Shown here one piece after another: positions 30,605 through 33,087 of a stretch of 64,000 nt of DNA. Location: contig NZ_BBIT01000013.1 in NCBI RefSeq assembly GCF_000730625.1, positions 186,001 through 250,000 of the forward strand, in the 5' to 3' direction. This DNA comes from Pseudomonas oryzihabitans NBRC 102199 (lineage in GTDB: Bacteria > Pseudomonadota > Gammaproteobacteria > Pseudomonadales > Pseudomonadaceae). A model generated the notes under the pieces. That model worked only from the letters and a program-made list of their open reading frames with translations. It was not told the origin of the DNA and ran no database searches. The translations under genes were made by a program, and so were the position numbers. The first letter of the stretch is position 1. Every line of letters starts with the position of its first letter.

Positions 30605-31765
30605 CTATTCCAGGCCGGCCAGCACGCGGTACTTGTTGAGCACCGGCTGGGCGTACTGGCGCACCAGCTGCGCCCGGTATTCCGCCGGGCACTCGGCCAG
30701 GCGCTTTTCCCACTCGCCGCGGGCGACCGCGATCTCCTCGGCGGGAAACAGGGCGTCCACCGCGGGCACGGCCAGCTCCGGATCGCGACCCTCCCAGGCG
30801 GCATAGGCCAGGTAGCTGGCCGGGAACAGCCGGTAGTTGCCGAGGATCTGCCGGTCCATTTCCTGGGCCAGCGCCTTGGCATCCTCGAACTCACCCGTGA
30901 CCGGCTCGCCAAAGGCCACGTGCACCCGGCCCTTGTAGCCGGTGATGCCCAGGGCGATGCTGACGTCGTCCTCGCCCGGTGCCTTGGTATAGCCGCCGGT
31001 GGTGGCGCGGATGTGCAGTTCGCGGGCCTTGGCCTGGTCGCAGGGATCGAATTCGTAGCTGATGGATACCGGCACGATGTTCAGCGCCTTGACCAGCTCG
31101 GCGAAGGGGGCGTCCTTGCAGCTCATGTGGAACATCTTGAGGATGGCCGAATCGGTACGGTCGTCGCCATCCTTGGCCCGGCCCTCGGCCTGGGCGATCC
31201 AGATGGACTGGCCGTCCTGGCGGATCGAGTGATTGATGTAGGCGGACAGATTCTGGTACGCCGCCAGCTTCTCGCGCCGACCGCTGATGGAGCGGTGCAC
31301 GATGAAGCTCTTGTTCAGCCGCATCAGGTCGCTGACGAAGGGCTTCTGCAGGAGGTTGTCGCCGATGGCGATGCGCGGCGTTGGCAGGCCGGCGTGGTAG
31401 ACGGCATAGTTGACGAAGGCCGGGTCCATCACGATGTCGCGGTGGTTGGCCAGGAACAGATAGGCCCGGCCGCTGCGCAGCTGGTCGATACCGGAGTAGG
31501 TGACGCCGTCCGAGGCCTTTTCGATGGCGCGATCCACATAGGGTTCGAGCTTGTCCTGCAGCGCGGCGACGCTCTGGATGCCGCCCAGTTCCTGGCGCAG
31601 GCGGGTGCGCAACAGGGGCCGCACCACCCAGCCGAGGCCCTTGGACAGGCGCGGGAAACGGTAGCCGGCGAGGATGGCGATGAAGTGGTCGTCGTCGATC
31701 AGGCGGGCCAGAACCCCGGGGACTTCCGCGTCGTTATAGGGTCGAATGGCTTCGAACTCGCCCAT
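30605..31765 (-). CDS. 1-acyl-sn-glycerol-3-phosphate acyltransferase family protein
   Basis: A 386-residue PlsC-superfamily acyltransferase. Block I (LANHRDIVMDP, the HX4D catalytic motif with His and Asp) lies near residues 106-116, and block III is EGRAKDGDDRTD. It is longer than ordinary PlsC (about 245) and lacks an obvious membrane helix, so it belongs to a separate long family found in pseudomonads and relatives. Substrate and product (phosphatidate or another acylated lipid) are inferred only from the superfamily. The ATG at 31765 gives the shortest complete form; upstream codons lack family character. Confidence 0.82.
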   Translation of the reverse strand: MGEFEAIRPYNDAEVPGVLARLIDDDHFIAILAGYRFPRLSKGLGWVVRPLLRTRLRQELGGIQSVAALQDKLEPYVDRAIEKASDGVTYSGIDQLRSGRAYLFLANHRDIVMDPAFVNYAVYHAGLPTPRIAIGDNLLQKPFVSDLMRLNKSFIVHRSISGRREKLAAYQNLSAYINHSIRQDGQSIWIAQAEGRAKDGDDRTDSAILKMFHMSCKDAPFAELVKALNIVPVSISYEFDPCDQAKARELHIRATTGGYTKAPGEDDVSIALGITGYKGRVHVAFGEPVTGEFEDAKALAQEMDRQILGNYRLFPASYLAYAAWEGRDPELAVPAVDALFPAEEIAVARGEWEKRLAECPAEYRAQLVRQYAQPVLNKYRVLAGLE

Positions 31766-31872
31766 GGTGTTCTCTTGTAGAAATTCCGGCGGCCATAGTA
31801 GTGGGCGTGGCGCCAGATGCAAGCGCCAGGGGCCGGATGGGCGGCAGGTTGGCGGTCAAGGAGTGCAGGCAG

Positions 31873-32055
31873 ATGCTGGAAAGCCAGGAATACGATTGCC
31901 CTTATTGCGGCGAACCGGGCGAGGTGGTGCTCGACCTCAGCGGCGGTGATCAGGACTACTACGAAGACTGCGAAGTCTGCTGCCGGCCGATCCGCTTCGG
32001 CCTGCACACCGATGGCGAGGACTGGAATCTCGAGGTTCGTCGGGAGGACGACTGA
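31873..32055 (+). CDS. CPXCG motif-containing cysteine-rich small protein
   Basis: A 60-residue acidic protein with two Cys pairs, CPYCG near the start and CEVCC in the middle (CEVC-C), arranged like a small zinc ribbon. This is a conserved family of unknown function. The ATG at 31873 was chosen because the family begins just before the first CPxCG; upstream in-frame codons are rich in Arg/Ala and look non-coding. Its stop overlaps the next gene (TGATG), which implies coupled translation. Confidence 0.85.
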   Translation: MLESQEYDCPYCGEPGEVVLDLSGGDQDYYEDCEVCCRPIRFGLHTDGEDWNLEVRREDD

Positions 32056-32315
32056 TGCGTCGCATCTACGAGCCGGGTTCGCTGCACGAGGGTGAATTGC
32101 TCCTGGCGGTGCTGGCCAGCGAGGGCATCAGCGGCTTTCTCGCCGGGCGCCATCTGCTCGGGGGCATCGGCGACCTGCCGGCGGCAGGGCTGCTCGGCCT
32201 GCTGGTCGAGGATGAGGAGGCCCTCCGCGCGCAGGCGCTGATCGCCGCGTACAATGCCGCCACGCCCCTGCCGGGAGAGGATCCTTCCCCCGAGCAGGGC
32301 ATCCTCGTCTGCTAG
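32055..32315 (+). CDS. DUF2007 domain protein (putative signal-transducing protein)
   Basis: An 86-residue protein (MRRIYEPGSLHEGELLLAVL) with the DUF2007 features: an N-terminal strand-helix where a gene product such as a PII-like fold is expected, LLGGIGDLPAAGLLGLLVEDEEA, and a helix with ALIAAYNAA. Function unknown. It starts within the stop of the CPXCG gene and should be made together with it, so the pair may act together. A long imperfect palindrome follows immediately. Confidence 0.83.
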   Translation: MRRIYEPGSLHEGELLLAVLASEGISGFLAGRHLLGGIGDLPAAGLLGLLVEDEEALRAQALIAAYNAATPLPGEDPSPEQGILVC

Positions 32316-32456
32316 GTTCTAGACGAAAAGTGCCTACGCATCGGTGATGCTTCGTTGAAAAACGCTTCGGAATGCTCATTTACCACTTGTAAACTCCGCT
32401 TCCTCAGCATTTTTCGCCTCGCCTGACCTTCGCTCGGCGACTTTTCGTAAAGAACC
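32315..32456. repeat. 142-bp imperfect palindrome (probable dispersed intergenic element)
   Basis: The ends are near-perfect inverted arms of about 20 bases (GGTTCTAGACGAAAAGTGCC at the left, complementary to 32436-32456). An inner hairpin pairs GAAAAA...TTTAC with GTAAA...TTTTTC around 32375-32425. No frame inside looks coding. Similar sequences are, to my memory, scattered through pseudomonad genomes, but only one copy is in this window. It fills the gap between the DUF2007 and SRAP genes. Confidence 0.75.
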
Positions 32457-32469
32457 TAAAAAGGTTTTC

Positions 32470-33087
32470 ATGTCCGGACGCTACGCCCTGTTCCGCTGGC
32501 CCGCCGAATTCGCCGCCCTGGCGGGATTCCCCGAAAAGCATGCGCCGCGCTGGAACATCTCCCCCCATCAGCAGGTGCTGCTGCAGCGGCGGACCGCTGA
32601 GGGCGAGCGGGTCGACAGCGGTCGCTGGGGACTGACTCCGCCCTGGCTCACCGATCTTTCCCGCACCCCCACCCACGCCCGCGCCGAAAGCCTGGCCACC
32701 CAGCCGATGTTTCGCGAGCCCTTTCGCCTGCGGCGTTGCCTGCTGCCCGCCAACGGCTTCTACGAATGGCGCGGCAATCATCGCAAGCGGCCCTACTGGA
32801 TGCTCAATGGCGAACCCCTGGCCTGGTTCGCCGCGCTCTGGGAGGCCTATCCGGCCGGGGACCAGCTCTGGCTGTCGGTGGCCATGGTCACCCAGGCCGC
32901 CGGCCCGCTGCGGCGGCCGATCCTGCTGGATGAAGCGGGGCGTGCCCTCTGGCAGGATCCGGACAGCCCGCCTGAAGCCCTGCAGGCGCTGTTGGCCACG
33001 GGCGGCATGCCGCTGCGCGAGCGGGTGCTGGCCGATATCGTCAACCGACCCGAGGTGGACGGGCCGGAGTGTCTGACCCCGCTGTAG
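32470..33087 (+). CDS. SRAP (HMCES/YedK) family protein lacking the catalytic cysteine
   Basis: A 205-residue protein of the SOS-response-associated peptidase fold. Family members such as E. coli YedK use Cys2 to crosslink abasic sites in single-stranded DNA, with Asn75, Glu105 and His160 assisting. Here the protein starts MSGRYALF, so residue 2 is Ser. The INARVET segment has become THARAES (Asn to His). NGFYEWRGN keeps the Glu. The histidine before RRP is lost (AGPLRRPILL). The overall framework (WGLTPPW, FREPFRLRRCLLPANGFYEW) is intact, so the fold is kept while the chemistry must differ. The start at 32470 has an AAAAGG site. Divergent SRAP proteins like this seem common in pseudomonads. 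Confidence 0.85.
   Translation: MSGRYALFRWPAEFAALAGFPEKHAPRWNISPHQQVLLQRRTAEGERVDSGRWGLTPPWLTDLSRTPTHARAESLATQPMFREPFRLRRCLLPANGFYEWRGNHRKRPYWMLNGEPLAWFAALWEAYPAGDQLWLSVAMVTQAAGPLRRPILLDEAGRALWQDPDSPPEALQALLATGGMPLRERVLADIVNRPEVDGPECLTPL

Follow-up and report, generated by a model that had tools for sequence, protein, structure and literature searches.

An SRAP-fold protein of Pseudomonas oryzihabitans with Ser2 belongs to a Pseudomonadaceae-wide group with a remodelled active site

What does an SRAP protein do when it has kept the fold of the family and only one of the four residues that define its chemistry? When the domain was named in 2013, Cys2 was said to be absolutely conserved, and Asn, Glu and His to be conserved (PMC3765255), and a 2022 study of YedK again termed Cys2 invariant (PMC9436759). 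The question is raised by a gene near the middle of a 64,000-nucleotide stretch of Pseudomonas oryzihabitans NBRC 102199 (contig NZ_BBIT01000013.1, positions 186,001-250,000, forward strand), which we call the window:

32470..33087, + strand: atypical SRAP gene, 205 amino acids, protein beginning MSGRYALFRW (open reading frame; Pfam PF02586; AlphaFold2 model)

An earlier sequence-only reading had proposed that this protein has an SRAP fold from which Cys2, Asn and His are gone and Glu is retained, that it cannot be a canonical YedK and may bind DNA without crosslinking or have another role, and that a long palindrome lies upstream. In the literature searched, no report on this gene in Pseudomonas was found.

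The assignment to the superfamily stands on two lines of evidence that agree, as that reading had supposed. The Pfam profile PF02586 matches with an E-value of 1.3e-35 and 123.3 bits, against a curated cut-off of 27.1, and the structures of YedK and HMCES are also matched at the sequence level. An AlphaFold2 model, for which 22 relatives were supplied, reaches a pLDDT of 90 and aligns over its full length to HMCES and YedK (Z 22-24 over 191-203 residues), the matched structures including 8d2m, the Schiff-base complex of YedK C2A; by profile and predicted fold, then, the protein is a member of the SRAP superfamily. A wrongly called start can be dismissed: the frame opens with ATG and holds no other in-frame start back to the preceding stop. 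PADLOC returned no match at the locus that would make it a defence system, and no close plasmid match was found that would point to a mobile origin. There is one 63% match in an unannotated 14.7-kb record labelled ‘Bacteriophage sp.’, which may be misassigned bacterial DNA.

Alignment to YedK of E. coli locates the residues in question; the counts over 224 loci refer to the orthologous group described further on. The residues of the YedK reference sequence agree with the PDB chain segments matched here.

32473..32475, + strand: codon of Ser2, at YedK Cys2 (YedK alignment)
32674..32676, + strand: codon of His69, at YedK Asn75 (YedK alignment)
32764..32766, + strand: codon of Glu99, at YedK Glu105, the retained catalytic residue (YedK alignment; Glu in 224 of 224 loci)
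32890..32919, + strand: shortened loop TQAAGPLRRP, whose YedK counterpart is TAAADQGLVDIHDRRP with His160 (no residue at the His160 position in any of the 224 loci)

The four residues of a canonical crosslinker are thus reduced to one, Glu105, with Cys2, Asn75 and His160 all missing, exactly the losses first described from the sequence. Around them the protein is conservative: Arg162, Arg163 and Pro164 of YedK are Arg148, Arg149 and Pro150 here, with His160 falling in a gap, and Arg4, Arg77 and Trp106 are also kept. The DNA-channel set of Arg4, Arg77, Trp106 and Arg162, for which contact with DNA is known from YedK, is present in all 224 loci. Because Ser replaces Cys2, a thiazolidine crosslink of the YedK type through residue 2 is impossible, and to that extent the protein is indeed no canonical YedK. 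Like YedK and the SRAP domain of HMCES, it has the whole fold, a small residue after Met1, and Arg4, Arg77, Glu105, Trp106 and Arg162; unlike them, the group to which it belongs has Ser, Thr or Cys at residue 2, His or Gln in place of Asn75 and a deleted His160 loop, the 205-residue protein being 20-25% identical to them.

Neither a sequencing error nor a change peculiar to one strain can account for Ser2, which is found in every genome of the genus and in other genera as well. All 13 genomes of the genus (the P. oryzihabitans group, whose named members with the gene include P. oryzihabitans, P. rhizoryzae, P. duriflava and P. asuensis) carry the 205-residue Ser2 gene, and its pairwise dN/dS within the genus is about 0.11; it is therefore under purifying selection. 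A whole-genome search of the source genome found two SRAP genes, the one in the window and a canonical paralogue on contig 33 (G000:C33) that reads MCGRFA...INAR...WYEW...IHDRRP. Among the 13 genomes, two (G010 and G012) lack this canonical copy and a third, G009, seems to carry a broken one. In one member of the genus there is another divergent match to SRAP, which contains an internal TAG (L020, G003:C2:183443-184081).

The gene also keeps its company. Its upstream neighbours in the window are as follows, the last of them lying between DUF2007 and SRAP:

30605..31822, - strand: acyltransferase-domain gene, divergent neighbour (Pfam PF01553; synteny)
31873..32055, + strand: CPXCG cysteine-rich protein, start inferred, longest open reading frame from 31801 (Pfam PF14255; synteny)
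32055..32315, + strand: DUF2007 gene, immediate upstream neighbour (Pfam PF09413; synteny)
32313..32458, no strand assigned: dispersed MITE-like inverted-repeat element, 146 bp (repeat matches; empty sites)

The order acyltransferase (divergent), CPXCG, DUF2007 and SRAP is conserved and is followed by a chemoreceptor and/or an M48 peptidase gene. DUF2007 and SRAP are 13-80 bp apart in most genomes and likely share an operon. Control by LexA was considered and rejected: the pattern CTGT-N8-ACAG is absent near the operon, and across the window its matches are fewer than expected by chance.

The palindrome noticed earlier is real, with arms at 32313-32331 and 32440-32458 that are 89% complementary, yet it is irrelevant to the SRAP gene. 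About 40 matches to the element occur in the genome, roughly 14 of them near full length, and it sits between DUF2007 and SRAP in only some strains of the genus. In the sibling strains L167, L168, L186 and L019 it is missing and DUF2007 is followed directly by AAGGTTTTC-ATG. Because the same spot is empty in these siblings, the palindrome is no part of the SRAP gene, and a regulatory role as a component of that gene is rejected; it is what remains of a mobile element and has no bearing on what the protein does. In this particular genome the element may nevertheless alter SRAP expression.

How far does the altered active site extend? Strong matches (more than 200 bits) to a profile built from the genus proteins occur in 16 of the 19 sampled genera of Pseudomonadaceae and make up an orthologous group at one syntenic locus; of the remaining three, one (g5) has a weaker relative only, one (g12) a canonical-type match only, and one (g19) no match. 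Beyond the family, the order and class yielded no match above 156 bits, and the four best class-level loci, when read directly, were canonical MCGR proteins. Active-site residues were counted over 224 loci (183 distinct proteins), with residue 2 counted in 223 as one locus is cut off there. The Asn75 position holds His in 191 loci, Gln in 33 and Asn in none; the His160 position is empty throughout, its loop deleted; and Arg4, Pro40, Trp67, Arg77, Glu105, Trp106, Arg162, Arg163 and Pro164 are identical in all 224. Residue 2 is Cys in 135 loci, Ser in 76 and Thr in 12, and nothing else; the tree requires at least nine changes at residue 2 and seven at residue 75.

The earlier description of the losses was therefore right as to which residues are missing and incomplete as to their history: the loss of Asn and His is of far older date and common to the whole Pseudomonadaceae group, including members that retain Cys2. 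Within a Pseudomonadaceae SRAP group that has been inherited vertically and has a remodelled active site, the window gene represents the P. oryzihabitans group. Fourteen sampled genomes from five genera yielded no SRAP besides the Ser2 protein, and these cells are therefore apparently without an SRAP of the thiazolidine type.

Such a distribution bears directly on the idea that canonical YedK has made the gene redundant and left it a relaxed paralogue in decay, as the loss of several active-site residues and the canonical copy in the source genome might suggest. The low dN/dS, the conserved order of the locus, and the presence of the gene in every one of the 13 genomes of the genus and in 16 of the 19 genera all run against it, and where copies are missing or broken (G010, G012, G009) it is the canonical ones that are affected. 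Purifying selection and conservation largely refute decay, which we regard as scarcely credible.

The residue counts hold one further pattern: Ser2 and Thr2 are seen only with His69, whereas Cys2 is seen with either His or Gln. A Pagel-type model in which the two residues depend on one another beats the independent model (LR 27.5, p ~2e-5, resting on six or seven changes on one tree), while an independent-pairs test of the same two residues was not significant, there being too few independent changes, so that the dependence of residue 2 on the state of residue 69 is suggestive. One way to read the pattern is as a novel catalytic set of the SRAP fold, Ser/Thr(Cys)-His-Glu at residues 2, 69 and 99, in which His69 would activate the hydroxyl of Ser2 or Thr2; the protein would then act on DNA-linked or other substrates as a hydrolase or transferase and would not crosslink AP sites. 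Activation by His69 would explain why Ser2 and Thr2 occur only with His69 and why Cys2 tolerates Gln69; we nonetheless consider this reading very unlikely.

Published work on YedK mutants offers another way to understand a protein of this kind. In YedK an imine arises through the alpha-amine of residue 2, and for C2A and C2S it has been trapped with borohydride; without the Cys2 thiol no stable crosslink is made and the enzyme becomes an AP lyase that cuts DNA by beta-elimination (PMC9436759). Glu105 is essential for the lyase, C2A/E105Q being 25-fold slower, whereas C2A/H160Q is slowed only 2.5-fold with imine formation unchanged (PMC9436759). His160 aids ring opening at internal AP sites and mutating it has only a mild effect at 3'-PUA ends, while N75A has a modest effect on internal AP sites and crosslinks 3'-PUA ends poorly (PMC9436759). 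The natural Ser2 protein resembles the C2A and C2S mutants, of which 8d2m holds C2A, in having Glu and no Cys2 thiol, and for those mutants both an imine and, in the thiol-less enzyme, AP lyase activity are on record (PMC9436759); unlike them, the natural protein is missing both Asn75 and His160, which the mutants keep.

The reading that we prefer, and hold tentatively, is that the Ser2 amine and Glu99 would form a reversible Schiff base with abasic DNA that ends in cleavage or turnover and leaves no stable crosslink. Met1 would be removed, as expected before Ser, freeing the alpha-amine of Ser2; Glu99 would activate this amine, which, in single-stranded DNA, would attack the C1' aldehyde at either an abasic site or a 3'-unsaturated-aldehyde end; and the Schiff base would resolve by beta-elimination (AP lyase) or by hydrolysis, with no closure to a stable thiazolidine. 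We favour this chemistry because Glu99 is invariant, residue 2 is limited to Cys, Ser and Thr, and YedK C2A and C2S behave in this manner, and because YedK mutants without Cys2 are Glu105-dependent AP lyases that hardly need His160. For the Ser2 and Thr2 members it is the most likely chemistry, extrapolated from published mutants of a YedK only 20-25% identical to them. Further support comes from the full-length SRAP fold, from the low dN/dS and the at least nine changes at residue 2 given above, from the genomes with the Ser2 protein as sole SRAP, from the invariance across the 224 loci of the positions that face AP-DNA in YedK (Arg4, Pro40, Trp67, Arg77, Trp106, Arg162), from the fact that Cys, Ser and Thr at residue 2 all permit removal of Met, and from the natural residue set, to which the mutants come close, without the Cys2 thiol and His160 and with Glu kept.

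Several points count against it. Activity on internal AP sites may be low without His160, and no LexA-box-like site lies near the operon. A lyase function cannot extend to the whole group because Cys2 is kept in more than half of the sampled loci, and the Cys2 members may still crosslink, perhaps slowly. Glu is also lost, with most DNA-facing residues kept, in the g5 relatives (L276, L277) and in the unlinked relatives of family f37.

These relatives lie outside the group. The g5 proteins and those of family f8 (L259-L262) are syntenic, lying near the same acyltransferase gene, and DUF2007 adjoins the SRAP relative in L276 and in L259-L262; both lack His160. The g5 proteins differ in having Ser2, Ser75, Leu or Ile at 105 and Ser or Gly at 160, with Gln for Arg77 in L277 in addition, and the f8 proteins in keeping Cys2 and Asn75 with Asp at 105. 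Family f37 of the order (L263-L270, L272) consists of SRAP-fold proteins beginning MAGRLY or MTGRLH, with Ala or Thr at residue 2, Cys75, Leu, Ile or Val at 105 and His160 missing; none of the four catalytic residues is left, and Arg4, Arg77, Trp106 and Arg162 are kept. At L316 an f37-type gene has as neighbours a TetR-like gene and one for a pitrilysin-like protease, both identified by eye. A separate set of Pseudomonadaceae SRAP proteins of the MCGRYVSP type (L042, L043, L044, L045, L047, L049, L052) has Phe for Asn75.

Relatives of this kind lend weight to the main rival of the Schiff-base reading, namely that the protein is a pseudo-SRAP that binds abasic sites or single-stranded DNA non-covalently, shielding lesions or signalling with its DUF2007 and CPXCG neighbours. 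L263-L272 (apart from L271, which is canonical) and L276 are without all four catalytic residues and still have Arg4, Arg77, Trp106 and Arg162, and in the group itself the DNA-facing residues are invariant despite the loss of Asn, His and often Cys. A mere binder, however, would need neither a Glu105 present in 224 of 224 loci nor a residue 2 that in this group is never Ala or Gly, and we judge this explanation somewhat unlikely.

A further alternative keeps the crosslinking and narrows it: the Cys2 members would form thiazolidines slowly or for a specialised purpose, mainly at 3'-PUA ends where His160 matters little, and the Ser2 and Thr2 members would provide a transient cap through a weaker adduct, oxazolidine-type or imine. 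The persistence of Cys2 in 135 of 223 loci and the mild effect of His160 mutations on 3'-PUA ends in YedK (PMC9436759) fit this proposal, while the poor crosslinking of the same ends by N75A, in a group where Asn75 is always replaced, and the impossibility of a stable thiazolidine with Ser do not; we think it unlikely.

Whichever chemistry applies, the departure from the canonical SRAP active site is real and conserved. A near-universal group of the Pseudomonadaceae breaks three of the four published residue rules for SRAP proteins (PMC3765255, PMC9436759), and residue 2 switches repeatedly among Cys, Ser and Thr; together these facts show that the fold is kept for something other than stable crosslinking. 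Several pseudomonad genera have yielded no SRAP but a Ser2-type protein. The annotation ‘SOS response-associated peptidase’ in pseudomonads need not imply YedK activity. If the Ser2 members are natural AP lyases, one scaffold would either protect or cut abasic DNA according to a single atom of residue 2, and the Ser/Thr2 branch of the pseudomonads may cut damaged DNA instead of shielding it.
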